A stretch of DNA of 53,266 bases from Dehalococcoidia bacterium (GTDB lineage Bacteria; Chloroflexota; Dehalococcoidia; Bin125). Positions 34,475-43,220 of this stretch are shown one piece after another (the first letter of the stretch is position 1; each line of letters starts with the position of its first letter). The notes under the pieces are model-generated. The model was not told the DNA's origin. It saw nothing but the letters and a program-made list of their open reading frames with translations, and ran no database searches. The DNA is taken from NCBI GenBank assembly GCA_022824765.1, contig JAJDZG010000163.1, forward strand, positions 1-53,266. The letters are read 5' to 3'. Made by a program: the position numbers and the translations under genes.

Positions 34475-35083
34475 ATGACGACCAACGTAAACGCCAGCGA
34501 GCTGGGCATTCGCTTTTCGGAAGTCGCGCGCGACAAGCTGGTCGAAGTCTTGACCGGTTATCCCGAGGAAGTCGCCGGGCTGCGCTTGAAGATCAACGGG
34601 CGTACCTCGCAGGGATTCGAGCACGTCCTCACGATCGTCGAGAAGGGCTATGAGCCCGAAGAGGACCTCGTCGCCGACTACCCAGACTTCCGGCTGTTCA
34701 TCGAGGGTGAGCGCGTTGACGATCTGCGCGGTGTCAGCGTCCACTACGAGTTCAAGGGCCCGAACGTCTCGGGGCTCGAGTTCGACAACCCCAACCCCGT
34801 CTGGCGCGACCCGCTCGCGGAGGAAATCCAGCGCATCTTCGACGAACAGGTCAATCCGCAGATTGCCGCGCACGGCGGCTTTGTGCAGCTGCTCGATGTG
34901 CAAGGGTCAAAGGCGTACATCGAAATGGGCGGAGGCTGCCAGGGCTGCGGCATGGCCAACGTCACCCTCAAGCAGGGCATCGAGGTCGCCGTCAAGGAAC
35001 AGCTGCCCGAGATCGACGAACTGATCGACATCACCGACCACCAAAGCGGCGACAACCCCTACTACAAGCCGTCCAAGAAGTAA
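34475..35083 (+). CDS. NfuA-type Fe-S carrier (A-type-like N-domain plus NifU C-domain)
   Basis: NPQIAAHGGFVQLLDVQGSKAYIEMGGGCQGCGMANVTLKQGIE (CxxC) NifU domain; N-terminal HesB/IscA-like region. Confidence 0.9.
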   Translation: MTTNVNASELGIRFSEVARDKLVEVLTGYPEEVAGLRLKINGRTSQGFEHVLTIVEKGYEPEEDLVADYPDFRLFIEGERVDDLRGVSVHYEFKGPNVSGLEFDNPNPVWRDPLAEEIQRIFDEQVNPQIAAHGGFVQLLDVQGSKAYIEMGGGCQGCGMANVTLKQGIEVAVKEQLPEIDELIDITDHQSGDNPYYKPSKK

Positions 35084-35140: not shown

Positions 35141-36511
35141 GTGGCAATCGTCCTGCTGCTCTCGACGTATGAGCAAGGACACCAACCGCTCGGCATCGCC
35201 GCGCCGGCGGCGGCACTCCGTGCCGCAGGCCACGACGTCTCCGCGTTCGACCTCGCCGTCCAATCGATCAGCTCCGACCAACTCCTCGACGCCGCGGCCC
35301 GCGCCGATCTGATCGGCATCTCCACGCCGATGCACACCGCAGCGCGACTCGGCGTCCGCGTGGCCCGTCAGCTGCAGGCCTCCTCTGATCGGTCTGATCG
35401 GATCGTCTTCTACGGTCACGCGGCCAACTCGCTGCGCGACTTGGGACTGGGCCGAGCGGTGTCGGGCGATGTCGATCTGCAGCTGGTGGCGTTGGCTGAC
35501 GGCGGCGATGCGTCGGTCGTGCCGCTCTTCGACCGCGAAGCGCGTCTCACGCCGGACCGATCGCTGCTGCCGCCGCTCGATCAGTACGCCCGTTACCGCT
35601 CGGCCGACGGCGACACGCACCTGGCCGGCTACGTCGAGGCGACACGCGGTTGCGCTCACCGCTGCACGCATTGCCCGCTCACGCCCATCTACGGCGGGCG
35701 GCTCCGATTGAACGGCGCGGCGGCCGTGCTGACAGACATCGACCAGCAGGTCGCGGCCGGAGCCGAACACATCACCTTCGGCGACCCTGACTTCCTCAAC
35801 GCGCCCCAACTCGCCGTGGAACTGCTGGAGGCTGCCTCAACAGCGCACCCGCAACTCACGTTTGATGCGACGATCAAGGTCGAGCATCTGCTCGAACATC
35901 GAGCGCTGCTGCCCCAGATGGCCTGCTGCGGCGTCACGTTCATCACGTCGGCCTTTGAGTCAGTCGACGACCAGCTGCTCGACGTCCTCGACAAAGGCCA
36001 CACCGCTGCCGACCTCGACACGGCGCTTGGCCTGGCCGAGCTGGCAGGCATCGCGCTGCGACCGACCTGGCTGCCCTTCACGCCCTGGACGTCGCCGCAG
36101 CACTATCTCGACCTGCTGCAGTTCGTGGAGACCCGCCAACTGGTCGACGTCACACCGCCCGTCCAGCTCGGCCTGCGGCTGCTGGCACCGGACGACTCGC
36201 CATTGGTGGCGCCGATGCGCGAGATGGGGGCGCTCGTCGACTACGACACGGATGGTCTGACCTGGAACTGGCGGCATGCCGACCCGCGCATGGATGATCT
36301 GCAGGGCGAGCTGGCACGACTGGCAGAGATGCAGGCGGACTTCGCAACAATCAAGCGCGCCGCCTGCGAGGTGCTGGGCATCAATCCCTGGCCCGACATC
36401 AACGCGCCGCACCTGCACCGTCCCGGCCTGACCGAAGATTGGTTCTGTTGAGCAGAGCCAACCGGAGACCAGTTGGCCCCCACAGACACCATCAGCCTCA
36501 TCAACGTCTAG
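35141..36511 (+). CDS. B12-binding-type radical SAM protein, predicted selenoprotein with C-terminal CUAEP tail (TGA at 36449-36451 read as Sec)
   Basis: RGCAHRCTHCPL radical SAM CxxxCxxC; N-terminal LLLSTYEQGHQPLGIAAPAAALRAAGHDV; after FC the TGA is followed in frame by GCA GAG CCA ... GTC TAG (AEPTGDQLAPTDTISLINV-stop at 36509-36511); SECIS-like hairpin immediately 3'. Confidence 0.88.
36457..36477 (+). promoter_or_regulatory. Putative bacterial SECIS hairpin for the Sec codon at 36449
   Basis: GCCAAC-C-GG-AGA-CC-A-GTTGGC: 6-bp stem, C/A mismatch, 2 bp, AGA loop; loop G at 36467, 16 nt past the TGA. Confidence 0.7.
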
Positions 36512-36517
36512 TCAGTT

Positions 36518-38544
36518 CTAGTCGTCGTCCAAGATCGTGATCTTCACGTACGACGACTCGCCGACAACATACCCCTCTCCAGGCAGGATACGCATCGCCA
36601 AGAAGCCATCCGGCTCCGCTTCGTCATCCCAGCGGACTGCAGCAATGTACGAGCCAAAGCCGTTAGAGCGGATCGTCATCTGTTGGCCGAAGCCGATGTT
36701 CCAGTCGTCTCGATAGTCACCGAGCCGGATCAACTGAAAGTTGACGACGATCGAGTCCTCAGGCGGCGGATCGGCCGTGACGCGGAGTCGGAACGTGTTC
36801 TGGGGGTGATACCGACTCTCGGTGATCGTGTTGTTCTTGACATTGGGAGAGTTGTAGTACAGCGTACCTACCGAAACGACCGGCAGATTCGCATCTGGCT
36901 GGCCGGTCGAAGCTGACGTATCAGGTCCGGTGTTGATGTGTGTTGCAACAGCATTGGCATGTTTGCCGTCATTGTCCAACACCTTCACCTGCGCCGACCA
37001 CGGTGTAGCGATGGCATACGTGCTGGAATTCAGCAGCCACACTTGAATGTAGTCAAACCGGGCTTCCTTGACATCATCGTCCTCAGTTGTGACTGTAAAC
37101 GTCGCTTGCCCGCTCGACGAGACGGTGATCTGCCTGGTCTCGTTGCGAACTCCGAAGTCACTGAGTCCGTCTCGCTGCTTGATGCCCACAGCAACAGTGA
37201 TCGGACTGGTCGGCGGCGGGGTCACATGTAGGGTCAGCTCGATTGAGTCGCCCTCGACAATCTCGGGGATGGACCATCCGTAGTGCCGAGCGTAGAACTC
37301 AGCAACGATCGGCGCGGCACCGGTCATCGTCACCACTGGGAGCGATGCGGCAGCGTCGTCGTTGTCGCGAACCTTCACAGTCGCCGATGACGGCGATCCG
37401 AGTACATAGCCGTCGCGCAGGAACACCGATGCCGTCAATGATCCGTTCGGCTCGTCGACAGCATCATCCTCAGTCTCCACCTTCACTTCGACTGATCCGC
37501 TGGTCGGAATCGTCACCCACTGGTCGTGCTTGCTGACGCCGAAGTCTCCGTCGGGCACGAAGTGAACCAGTACCTTGAAGGGCTGCGCCGGGGCGGGCGT
37601 CGCCGTCACGGTGAAGCGGGCCAGCTTGCCCTCCGCTCGTGCGTTGCCGCCTGAGATCGTCACGGATGGAGGCGCAGGAACGTCATTGTCTTTGACTTTG
37701 ACCGTCGCCGATGACGGCTTCCCTACTTCGTAGCCGTCTCGCAGGGACACCGATGCCGTAACGGAGCCGTTCGGCTCATCAACCGAATCGTCGACTGTGG
37801 CGATGCCGACATTGACAGTCCCGCTGGTCGGAATCGTGACCCAGCGATCATGCTTGCTGACGCCGAAGTCTCATCGGGCACAAAGTGCACCAGAACATTC
37901 AACGGAAGCGCCGGGGACGGCGTTGCCGTGACGAGAAATCGAGCTGGCTTGCCTTCACTGAGCGGAAGCCTTCCTGCAATTGTCACCTCGGGGAGCACTT
38001 GCTGGGGCTTGTCGTCGTCTGTAATGGAAACGGTCAGCTCGCTCTGAGCAACGTTGACGCCTCCAGTCACATGACGCGCCAACACGGGTTGATGACCACC
38101 GCCGAGGTTGACGTTCAGGACGCGATTCGTTTGATCGTTGTTGTTGAGGGCAACCAATCGGATCGTTGCCATCTGTGCGCCAGCAGTGAACCGCACGCGC
38201 CGACTGCCGTCATTGCGCTTCAACCGCGTAATGCTGGTGTCATTGTCGCGGCGGAGGAACCTGTCTCGGTAGTGGACACCGGCTTTGGCGCCGCTGATCT
38301 TGTAGTTGACGTCGATGCGCTCCTTGCCGGTCAGCTCCCGGCTGAGCTCGATTCGCATCCGAGTGCTGCCGCCGTCCTCTTCAACGCTGTCATCCTCGAC
38401 GCCCATAACAATTTATATCGCCCCCCCCCCCCCCGAAACTCTTGTTCCGAACGGGCTCACAGCGCTCAACAATCCAGCCACAACAACACCAGCGATGAGA
38501 ATCGCGGGCAACACGGCAGCCAATCGAGTCTGAGCAAACATCAT
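36518..38544 (-). pseudogene. Calx-beta repeat surface/secreted protein, interrupted by a 1-nt frameshift near 37872 and an in-frame TAA at 38413-38415
   Basis: ORFs 36518-37750 and 37723-38406 carry near-identical Calx-beta repeats (VLVHFVPD..., SLRDGYEVGKPSSATVKVKDND); ORF 38413-38595 supplies a signal-peptide-like MMFAQTRLAAVLPAILIAGVVVAGLLSAVSPF in the same frame. Confidence 0.82.
38421..38434. repeat. Homopolymeric C14 (G14 on the coding strand)
   Basis: cg-cccccccccccccc-gaaact. Confidence 0.95.
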
Positions 38545-38650: not shown

Positions 38651-39781
38651 CTAGGACGCGGCCTCGAGCTGCCTTAGGCGATCCACGAGTTGTTTGGCGT
38701 CGTTGAGCACGGCTTGTTGGTGCGGCTGAATGTCCTGACCTCCGGCTGTCGCCGAGTTGTCCTCGAACGGATCGCCGGCGATCGATCTGCGGCCGCTCAG
38801 CTCCTCGACGACGGCCAATCCGCAGAACGGCACATAGGTCGGGCTGTAGCCGCCCTCATGGCTCAGGACCAGCCGCCCGCCGCAGAGCTGATCGGCGGAT
38901 TCCATCAGCAACCGCGTCATCTCGCGGAACGTCTCGGAGTAGGCCATCATCCGACCGAGCGGGTCGTACATGCTGCCGTCGAACCCGGACGGAACCAGGA
39001 TCAGGTCAGGCTGGAACGCCTCCAGCGCAGGCATGACGACCTGGCGGATGGTCTCGACGTAGGCGCCGTGACCCGAGCCAGGCGGCAGCGGAACGTTGAT
39101 GTTGTAGCCCTCGCCTGCACCCTCGCCGACTTCCGACAACGCGCCGCTGTCGCGCGGATACCACTGATCCTGGTGGATCGACATGGTCAGCACATCGGCG
39201 CGGTCGTAGAAGGCTTGCTGCGTGCCGTTGCCGTGGTGCACGTCCCAGTCGAGCGTCGCCACCTTGTCGATCCCGCGGTCGGCCAGGGCGTGCATCGCGG
39301 CGATGGCGACATTGCCGAAGATGCAGAATCCGCGCCCGCGATCTCGCTCGGCGTGGTGTCCGGGAGGTCTCACGAGCGCGTACGCGTTGTCCAGCTCGCC
39401 GTCGAGCACGGCATCGACCGCGGTGATCGTGCCGCCCGCGGCGAGCAGGGCGATCTCGTATCCGCCGTGCGAGAACGGCGCGCCCTCGCCGGCGTCGCCG
39501 CCGTCTGCCGCCGACAGCGCCCGCACGTGGTCCACATACTCGGGCGTGTGGAAGCGCAGAATCTGCTCCTCGTTGGCGGAGCGCGGTTTCAGCGGGATCA
39601 GCTGTTCGGAGAAGTCCGACACCTCGAGCAGGTTGTTGAGCCGCCGCTTCGTCTCGGGATTCTCCCAGTGCTCGATGGCCTGCATCCAGCGTTTCAGGAC
39701 GGGGTCGAACGCTCGAGTGCGGCCGGTGTCGTGCCACATGTAGGTCTCGTGGTAGACCCAACCGGTTCTTCGCTCGACCAT
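38651..39781 (-). CDS. Histone deacetylase family protein (arginase/deacetylase superfamily)
   Basis: RPPGHHAERDRGRGFCIFGNVAIAAMHAL; LDWDVHHGNGTQQAFYDRADVLTMSIHQDQWYPRDSG; start refined. Confidence 0.95.
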   Translation of the reverse strand: MVERRTGWVYHETYMWHDTGRTRAFDPVLKRWMQAIEHWENPETKRRLNNLLEVSDFSEQLIPLKPRSANEEQILRFHTPEYVDHVRALSAADGGDAGEGAPFSHGGYEIALLAAGGTITAVDAVLDGELDNAYALVRPPGHHAERDRGRGFCIFGNVAIAAMHALADRGIDKVATLDWDVHHGNGTQQAFYDRADVLTMSIHQDQWYPRDSGALSEVGEGAGEGYNINVPLPPGSGHGAYVETIRQVVMPALEAFQPDLILVPSGFDGSMYDPLGRMMAYSETFREMTRLLMESADQLCGGRLVLSHEGGYSPTYVPFCGLAVVEELSGRRSIAGDPFEDNSATAGGQDIQPHQQAVLNDAKQLVDRLRQLEAAS

Positions 39782-39876
39782 GTCGCGCTCCTCCCTCATC
39801 AGTGACGCTGCGCGCGGAATCAGCAGCAGTCTAGACAAACAACGGCGTCTGCTGCCGTCCCTGTCGGGCATATGCT

Positions 39877-41322
39877 GTGATGACCCGCTCCATCCTCTGT
39901 GTCGAGGCAGTGCCCAACTCCATGTCCCAAGCCGCCGACAGCGAGGACGTCTGGGCCCGATCACCGCAGCGCCCGCTCGCGGCGCGGCTGCTGCCACAGC
40001 GGTTCTACTACGGCTGGGCGATCGTGTTCGCCTGCGCCGCGTTGATGTTCGTCTCGGTCGGCGTCGGCTACTACGGGCTCGCGGTCTATCTGGGACCGCT
40101 GCGAGAGCTGCACGGTTGGTCGAACGCCGACGTCTCGCTCGCGACGGGCATGTACTTCGCCTTCTCGGGCCTGTCATCAGCGCTCGTCGGGCCGCAGATT
40201 GACAAGCATGGCGCGCGGCGCTGGATGATCCCCGGCCTGCTGCTGATCGCCCTGGGATCGGTGTTCATCGGTCAGGTAGCCGAGCTCTGGCAGCTGTATG
40301 TGACCTACATCATGCTCGCCGTCGGCTCGGGCATGAGCGCCGGGGTTGCGGTCAACGCGACCCTGGCGCGCTGGTTCGTCCAGCGTCGAGCGTGGGCCAT
40401 GGCCATGGCGTCGACGGGCGTCTCACTGGGCGGCGCGGTGCTCTCACCGCTCAACACGTTCCTGATCGAGCAGTGGGGCCTGGAGGTCGCCACGCCGATC
40501 ATGGGATTGCTGATCGTGGCCGTCGGCATCCCGATCGTGGTCCTGGTGCTGGTCTGGGATCCGCGCCAGATGGGACTGCCGCAGGACGGCCTCAAGGTCG
40601 TGGCGACGGCGACCACCAACGCGGCGCGCTCAGCGGCCAATCAAACACGCCGCTGGACGCCGCGACAGGCGCTGCGCACCCTGCCCTTCTGGGCGATCCT
40701 GGTCAGCTTCGTGATCGTGTTGCTGGCCCAGACCGGGTTCATTCTGCACCAGGTGGCATTTCTCGAGCAGCGGCTCGGATCGCTCACGGCAGCAGGCTCG
40801 ACGCTGTCGCTCACCGCGATTGGCAGCATCGTCGCGCGGCTGATCGTGGGCCGCTTCTTCGCCGATCGCGTGGACTTGCGCATCCTCACCGTGATCATGT
40901 TCCTGGTCCAGGGCACCGCCGCGTTGGCCGTCATCCACATCGACCATCCCGTCTCCACGTTTGTCTCGATCCTGATCTTCGGCTTCACGATCGGCAACGT
41001 CTACATGTTGCAGTCGCTGCTCACGTCGGACGTGTTTGGCTACGTCAGTTTCGGCGCGGTGTATGGCATGATCGCGTTTGCCACGCAGCTCTCGAGCGGG
41101 TTCGGCCCGTGGCTGATCGGCGCCCTGGAGGATCTGACCGGATCCTACGAAGTGCCGCTCACGGTCGTGGCCATCCTGACCTACGCGGCGCTGCTCCCGA
41201 TCTACTTCGCCCGTCCGCCCAAGCGAGCCCTGCGTCGAGCGCTCAGCAGCGCCATCTCAGTCATGGTCACCAGACCCGCACCGCAACAGAGCGCCGTGGA
41301 CGAGAGTATGCTGGGCAAGTAG
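39877..41322 (+). CDS. MFS transporter
   Basis: FYYGWAIVFACAALMFVSVGVGYYGLAVYLGPLRELHGWSNADVSLATGMYF; 12-TM-like pattern. Confidence 0.92.
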   Translation: MMTRSILCVEAVPNSMSQAADSEDVWARSPQRPLAARLLPQRFYYGWAIVFACAALMFVSVGVGYYGLAVYLGPLRELHGWSNADVSLATGMYFAFSGLSSALVGPQIDKHGARRWMIPGLLLIALGSVFIGQVAELWQLYVTYIMLAVGSGMSAGVAVNATLARWFVQRRAWAMAMASTGVSLGGAVLSPLNTFLIEQWGLEVATPIMGLLIVAVGIPIVVLVLVWDPRQMGLPQDGLKVVATATTNAARSAANQTRRWTPRQALRTLPFWAILVSFVIVLLAQTGFILHQVAFLEQRLGSLTAAGSTLSLTAIGSIVARLIVGRFFADRVDLRILTVIMFLVQGTAALAVIHIDHPVSTFVSILIFGFTIGNVYMLQSLLTSDVFGYVSFGAVYGMIAFATQLSSGFGPWLIGALEDLTGSYEVPLTVVAILTYAALLPIYFARPPKRALRRALSSAISVMVTRPAPQQSAVDESMLGK

Positions 41323-41481: not shown

Positions 41482-42018
41482 TCAAGTCGTGTTGAGAATC
41501 AGTGCGGCAACCAAGGCCGCGAACTCCAACACGAGCCCAAGCGCGGCGACCCTGAAGAAGGTGCTGCGCAGCTTCAGTGTTCCGTCATTCAATCTGGCGC
41601 CATGAATCAAGGCGGCGAGGCTTCGGGCCCTCATCAGTAACAGTTCAGGCTGATTCCATTGGCTGTACCAATCCAGATCGAGTCCTGTTCCCCAAGTTCG
41701 AGGCCACATTGCCAGGATCCCTGAGACCAGGGTCACAGAAGCCCCGACGATGGCCAAGATCGCGGGCACGCCATTGCTGGACCACGCGAACGTGAGATCG
41801 CCCGCAATCAACAAGGTTCCGACTCCGACGATGGCCCAACCGACCGTAGCGAACACGCGGGAGTCGAGTGTCGCACTGTCCTGACGATCGGATTCCGTGC
41901 GGTTTTGGGCTTCCGCCAGTAAGTAGTCAAGCTGTGGTTCAGGCAGCGCCTCTGTCCACCGAATCAGGTCTTCGAGGGAACGATGGTCACTCACAGCACG
42001 AATTCGATCTTCGACCAT
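41482..42018 (-). CDS. Hypothetical membrane protein
   Basis: Hydrophobic VFATVGWAIVGVGTLLIAGDL, VPAILAIVGASVTLVSGILAM and LGLVLEFAALVAALIL segments. Confidence 0.6.
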   Translation of the reverse strand: MVEDRIRAVSDHRSLEDLIRWTEALPEPQLDYLLAEAQNRTESDRQDSATLDSRVFATVGWAIVGVGTLLIAGDLTFAWSSNGVPAILAIVGASVTLVSGILAMWPRTWGTGLDLDWYSQWNQPELLLMRARSLAALIHGARLNDGTLKLRSTFFRVAALGLVLEFAALVAALILNTT

Positions 42019-43220
42019 GACTCGCGCAGCGCCGACTCGACCTCTGACGGATCACCGCCTCGAGCGAATATGAAGCCCGGATAGTCCGCGCCATCGGGCA
42101 ATGGGACCAGCCGGTCGCCGACGCGCGCTTCCATCTCGATCTGCTCGATCAGCGGCACGGCGGATGCCTCCTCGAGACCGTGGATCGCTCTGATCCGCCC
42201 GCGTCCCACAATCGGCATCATCATCACGCCGGCCGCCCGTGCGTCCCGGTTGAGCGATTCCAACGGTGCGCTGATCGCATGCCTCAGCACGATCTCCTCC
42301 AGCGACATGCCAGCGCCAAACTGCAGCGTTCGCGCGCAGAGTCCGCCGATCGTGCGGGCGGCGACGTCGACCGGCCAAGCGCCCTCGTCGTTGAGCCTCA
42401 GCTCGGCGTGCAGCGGACCATCGCGCAGACCGAGCGCCTCAGCCGAGCGTCGCGCAGCCTCCACCACCTGGTCTTGCTGCTGCTGCGGCAACCGCGACGG
42501 CGTGACGTAGATCGTCTCCTCGAAGAAGGGACCATCGAGCGGATCGGGCTTGTCGAAGATCGCGAGCGTGTGCAACTCGCCGTCGCGCAGCAATCCCTCT
42601 AACGCCACCTCGATGCCGGGGATGTATCCCTCGACCAGATAGCGATCGGCCAGATCGCCGCATTCTTCGGCGGCCGACTTGCTGCTCAGCAGACGCCGCA
42701 GCCGCTCTACGGCCTGGTCGAACGACGACGCATCGTCCGCCCGCATGACGCCGCGCGATCCGTTCAGGCCGAGCGGTTTGATCACAACGGGATACTCAAG
42801 CTGCGCGGCGGGACTTGGATCGTCGAAGCGGCAGACCTGCCAGCTCGGAGATTGCACGCCGGCCTCGTCCAACGCCTGGCGCAGCGCCGACTTGTCGCGC
42901 GTGCCCATCACGGATTCCGGCGAGTTGCCCGTCAGCTGCAGCTCCGCGCTCGCGTGGGCGGCGAGGATGGTGCCAGGATCGTCCACCGCGACGACCGCGT
43001 CCAACGGGAACCGGTCGGCGTATCGAGCGACCGCCTGCGCGCCGCGCTCGATGTCGTGGTAGGGCAACGTCAGCCAACGGCCGGGATACATGTCGGCCAG
43101 CGGTTGGTCGATGTCGGAGGCGACCACGACATCCAGGCCCAGCTTGTCGGCGGCCGACATAAAGTCGGGCGCACGGTACGACGCGGTTGGGATGAGCAGC
43201 ATGACGCGCGGCATACGCAC
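41991..43220 (-). CDS. ATP-grasp domain protein
   Basis: [87 protein letters not shown]. Confidence 0.9.

Follow-up and report, generated by a model that had tools for sequence, protein, structure and literature searches.

A predicted CUAEP-tail radical SAM selenoprotein of Chloroflexota, related to ArsL and co-inherited with an ATP-grasp ligase and Fe-S maintenance proteins

ArsL, an enzyme of arsinothricin biosynthesis that forms a C-As bond, carries a vicinal cysteine pair in its C-terminal RCCLKC tail and is not known as a selenoprotein. AprD4 (PDB 6fd2), a radical SAM 1,2-diol dehydratase, is not known to have a C-U tail. ArsL was proposed to transfer the 3-amino-3-carboxypropyl group of SAM to As(III) (PMC8552651), and enzymatic work on the protein is cited in a later review (PMC12159101). 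Two families of radical SAM enzymes that contain selenocysteine (Sec), TIGR04167 and TrsS (NF045646), are listed in a 2026 review of prokaryotic selenoproteins (PMC13188914); both are separate from the CUAEP family, whose name and accession searches of that review did not find. The CUAEP/CCAEP-tail radical SAM (seleno)proteins (NF040546) are named in NCBIfam without a function, and the literature searched contained no paper naming either CUAEP or NF040546, although an earlier mention may exist.

The window, i.e. the whole stretch of 53,266 nucleotides that was analysed, carries a protein with this tail, together with the following features.

34475-35083, plus strand: NfuA-like Fe-S carrier (degenerate A-type domain; CxxC-bearing NifU C-terminal domain), 57 nt upstream of the radical SAM gene
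35141-36511, plus strand: predicted CUAEP-tail radical SAM selenoprotein, 456 residues, Sec437; GTG start, TAG stop at 36509-36511
35651-35674, plus strand: CxxxCxxC motif (C171, C175, C178) of the radical SAM [4Fe-4S] cluster, invariant in 57 relatives
36446-36460, plus strand: C-U-A-E-P tail, identified by alignment of relatives: Cys436, predicted Sec437 (TGA 36449-36451), Ala-Glu-Pro
36464-36482, plus strand: SECIS-like hairpin, 16-34 nt counted from the T of the TGA, from covariation and shuffle controls; the window copy is weak
38651-40177, minus strand: histone-deacetylase-family protein
39877-41322, plus strand: MFS transporter, start codon uncertain, the ORF overlapping the preceding gene
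41991-43220, minus strand: L-amino-acid-ligase-like ATP-grasp protein, co-inherited with the radical SAM gene

The radical SAM frame starts at GTG 35141, 9 nt downstream of a ribosome-binding-like GAGGG, and passes through the in-frame TGA at 36449-36451 into 19 further codons, AEPTGDQLAPTDTISLINV, before the TAG is reached. The extended product of 456 residues reads ...WFC-U-AEPTGDQLAP..., with U at position 437. The ORF, TGA and extension coordinates and the translation given in an earlier sequence-only reading of this DNA proved exact in every position, and the three elements that it had recognized, the CUAEP tail, a B12-binding-like N-terminal domain and CxxxCxxC, were all recovered by alignment or Pfam match. 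Virtually all full-length relatives share the tail consensus P-x-L-[ST]-E-x-W-[FY]-C-[U/C]-A-E-P. In an alignment of 57 proteins no variation is found at C436, A438, E439 and P440, at residue 437 (always U or C) or at the three cysteines of the cluster motif. Despite the match of the N-terminal domain to Pfam B12-binding, the DxHxxG cobalamin ligand motif was not seen in the protein sequence; some radical SAM enzymes bind cobalamin without this motif. The AlphaFold model is confident on the whole (mean pLDDT 91.6) but not over its last 14 residues, and the block that contains the C-U pair averages only 71.

The NCBI family of CUAEP/CCAEP proteins that the sequence-only reading had named does exist, and NF040546 is the best NCBIfam match, spanning positions 1-467 of the 468 in the profile. 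The score of 475.2 bits (468.1 in the genome search), however, falls below the curated cutoff of 500 bits, as do those of three relatives of the same genus (465.5-479.3 bits). The clade, at 465-479 bits, has the same tail and domains and is treated here as part of the CUAEP lineage that lies below the cutoff. The cutoff is passed in 95 of 399 sampled genomes of the phylum, and about seven more, the window's clade included, lie just below it. One Baikal MAG (isolate Baikal-deep-G124) holds two divergent CCAEP copies on different contigs.

Sequence comparison indicates that translation continues past the TGA. When the ten codons that follow it are compared with those of 14 close relatives, first, second and third codon positions show 0, 1 and 58 differences, and 53 codon changes are synonymous and five nonsynonymous; the corresponding position counts for DNA lying mostly beyond the true stop are 325, 329 and 276. 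Judged from these substitutions, the coding pattern is far beyond chance. At the aligned site a TGA is found in 71 family sequences, counting that of the window, and TGC or TGT in 36; on a tree built without the tail, about ten changes between Sec and Cys are needed, at least eight of them on well-supported branches. The hairpin 3' of the TGA has 80% of its pairs formed in Sec members vs 42% in Cys members, and covariation is present in the former and absent in the latter. The arm match of distant Sec members is 0.81, compared with a maximum of 0.74 in 2000 shuffles, while that of the Cys members does not exceed their own shuffles. The window's own hairpin (five of six pairs, bulged register) is among the weaker ones, so that a SECIS-type element is predicted with family-wide support rather than from this copy alone.

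The genome to which the window belongs also contains the Sec machinery: selA (523 bits), selB (329 bits over its best part), selD (352 bits) and a tRNA-Sec(UCA) gene (anticodon tca). Because of the third-position bias, the Sec/Cys interchange, the hairpin covariation and this machinery, the TGA at 36449-36451 almost certainly encodes Sec. The same observations speak against an ordinary stop followed by accidental similarity, a reading for which no point in favour was found and which, being refuted by the sequence evidence, is practically untenable. The claim of the sequence-only reading that this TGA is not a stop is thereby borne out; the selA, selB, selC and selD genes that it had proposed to look for are all four present, and homologs carry CUAEP or CCAEP instead of ending at the Cys. 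The selD gene, too, encodes a selenoprotein, its CGGUGSK motif containing an in-frame TGA (positions 1515-1550 of locus L010, genome contig C55). Across genomes, selB was detected in 76 of the 80 that carry the family, whichever tail is encoded, and in 60 of 80 without the family, and its presence failed as a discriminator of Sec and Cys members. A single-contig CCAEP genome (G238) is without selA and selB.

A cultured carrier is known. In Thermomicrobium roseum DSM 5159 the family gene resides on a 918-kb plasmid, and the annotated protein (WP_012643191.1) ends at ...LTESWFC while the DNA continues TGA GCG GAG CCG. Public annotation thus cuts the protein at the Sec codon, just as had been expected of gene callers from the window sequence.

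Neighbourhood comparison showed that the ATP-grasp gene recurs next to radical SAM genes of the family. Its product resembles, over nearly the full length, the L-amino acid ligases BL00235 (PDB 3vot, E = 4e-43), its closest solved relative, and BacD, yet it forms a distinct orthologous group tied to the radical SAM gene. A profile search recovered the orthologue from all 80 genomes that have the radical SAM gene and from only four of 80 that lack it, one of the four being weak, which makes the link to the ligase near-obligate. The associated Fisher p value of 4e-41 overstates the number of independent events because closely related genomes are counted repeatedly; 40 genera are, however, represented among the 80 genomes. 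The two genes lie within 75 nt of each other in 26 of the 80 genomes (21 on the same strand), and in the remaining genomes the two matches are further apart or on different contigs. The radical SAM enzyme and the ATP-grasp ligase very probably constitute a functional module. Three genomes (G040, G054 and G142; loci L172, L173 and L174) have a strong ATP-grasp orthologue but lack a CUAEP radical SAM match that approaches the family score, for which loss, replacement or incomplete assembly may account; one of them, G142, retains YggX next to the orthologue.

The second recurrent partner is an Fe-S maintenance protein. YggX (Iron_traffic) is encoded by 30 of 40 genomes that have the radical SAM gene vs two of 40 that lack it, and often adjoins the ATP-grasp gene where the latter is unlinked. 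The same 30 genomes encode a formyltransferase-like protein that, at a threshold of at least 170 bits, occurs in none of the 40 others. For the ten radical SAM genomes that lack both, the loci of their lineages show, where seen, an NfuA-like gene adjoining the radical SAM or the ATP-grasp gene, as is the case at many family loci. The window is of this NfuA type, whereas the main NF040546 lineage pairs with YggX and the formyltransferase-like protein. Together, the YggX counts and the NfuA-like genes of the other lineages establish a strong link to an Fe-S maintenance protein. In one family (L154, L156, L160, L161 and L171), unlinked ATP-grasp/YggX/formyltransferase-like genes adjoin genes that, judged by eye from their sequences, encode SAM synthetase, adenosylhomocysteinase and methylthioribose-1-phosphate isomerase; such neighbours would be in keeping with a pathway that consumes SAM.

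Among characterised proteins, ArsL is closest to the radical SAM protein, at 30-34% identity and with kinship over residues 4-396, and its model (NF040542) is the second NCBIfam match (238.5 bits vs a cutoff of 450). The two proteins have common fold elements, and the vicinal Cys pair of the ArsL tail aligns with C-U. An ATP-grasp gene is present in two ArsL-type operons as well, those of Priestia and Alicyclobacillus. The product of that gene was considered as an orthologue of the window's ATP-grasp and rejected at 23-24% identity. The systems also differ in that the ArsL tail is RCCLKC rather than CUAEP and in that ars genes surround ArsL and not the CUAEP family: no ars genes occur in the conserved clusters of neighbours or among the families listed for 122 neighbouring proteins, and the same survey found no arsR, arsM, arsN1 or arsenic pump beside family members. 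Arsenic itself is therefore unsupported as the substrate and is not claimed. The metal- or Se-handling role that the sequence-only reading had proposed is still hypothetical: the ArsL kinship speaks for a function of this sort, but no arsenic genes were seen beside family members.

What is new here is the co-inheritance of the enzyme with an ATP-grasp ligase and an Fe-S maintenance protein, the family name having been known before. The explanation that best accommodates the data, and that we hold with somewhat better than even confidence as a whole (a compromise over the Sec, module and chemistry steps), is a radical SAM and ligase module that makes a small molecule from an amino acid and in which the Cys-Sec tail of the enzyme sits in the active site. 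SelB and the SECIS-type hairpin would insert Sec at the UGA at 36449 to give the full-length selenoenzyme, and SAM would be cleaved at the CxxxCxxC cluster. As to the position of the tail, the transferred fragment, the substrate and the product, we infer that Cys436-Sec437, in place of the Cys-Cys of ArsL, most likely folds to the active site, where it would bind or attack a soft substrate, be it a metalloid, a thiol or a selenol, and that the SAM-derived radical fragment may be joined to this substrate. The L-amino-acid-ligase-like ATP-grasp enzyme would then couple the resulting amino-acid product to another molecule, and NfuA here, or YggX in other lineages, presumably maintains the oxygen-labile cluster. 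That the tail specifically performs chemistry like that of ArsL is, by analogy, a tentative proposal.

Conventional 5'-deoxyadenosyl chemistry that dehydrates, methylates or rearranges an ordinary metabolite, with the ligase acting on the product, stays a serious rival because the best fold match is AprD4 (TM about 0.68, about 15% identity), which fits such chemistry equally well. The Cys-Sec pair would then have a redox function, as electron or hydrogen donor, or protect the cluster in aerobic bacteria; vicinal Cys-Sec pairs act as redox centres elsewhere, and co-inheritance with YggX or NfuA is consistent with oxygen stress. On balance this rival is judged rather unlikely, as ArsL, and not AprD4, is the protein of known chemistry that comes closest in sequence, and the vicinal Cys pair is common to ArsL, where it suggests soft-substrate binding.

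Taken strictly, the ArsL kinship over residues 4-396 and the ATP-grasp genes of ArsL operons could also point to an organoarsenical (arsinothricin-like) synthase that uses As(III). That the gene lacks the arsenic companions surveyed above, and that the family occurs in many genera without visible resistance islands, makes such a synthase improbable. Quite improbable, too, is a tail that coordinates an auxiliary Fe-S cluster or a different metal, with NfuA or YggX aiding its delivery: the C-[U/C] pair is strictly conserved and Fe-S factors lie beside the gene, but the tail offers only two chalcogen ligands and the other invariant columns of the 57 proteins include no Cys beyond CxxxCxxC.

Under the preferred module reading, a family known by its database name only changes, through its ligase and Fe-S links, from an orphan selenoprotein into a pathway with testable members, and, if the Cys-Sec tail is catalytic, the enzyme would parallel ArsL, which forms a C-As bond, but depend on selenium. 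Possibly, about a quarter of the sampled genomes of the phylum harbour a pathway in which a Cys-Sec- or Cys-Cys-tailed radical SAM enzyme, a ligase, an Fe-S guard and, in one lineage, a formyltransferase-like protein would make a new peptide-like metabolite or cofactor by transferring part of SAM to a soft element. That about one in four sampled bacteria of the phylum inherit the enzyme along with the ligase and an Fe-S helper points to a small-molecule pathway, of which the literature searched contained no description.

The genes between the radical SAM and ATP-grasp genes are of more local distribution. The histone-deacetylase-family gene is syntenic in this interval in close relatives only, and the MFS transporter gene is likewise syntenic in close relatives. 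On the minus strand, the ORFs at 36518-37750 and 37723-38406 overlap in different frames, contain repeated stretches, and look like one repeat protein broken by a frameshift near 37.87 kb. Since the histone-deacetylase-family gene directly follows the radical SAM gene in close relatives, the 36518-38406 segment looks like an insertion in the window lineage.
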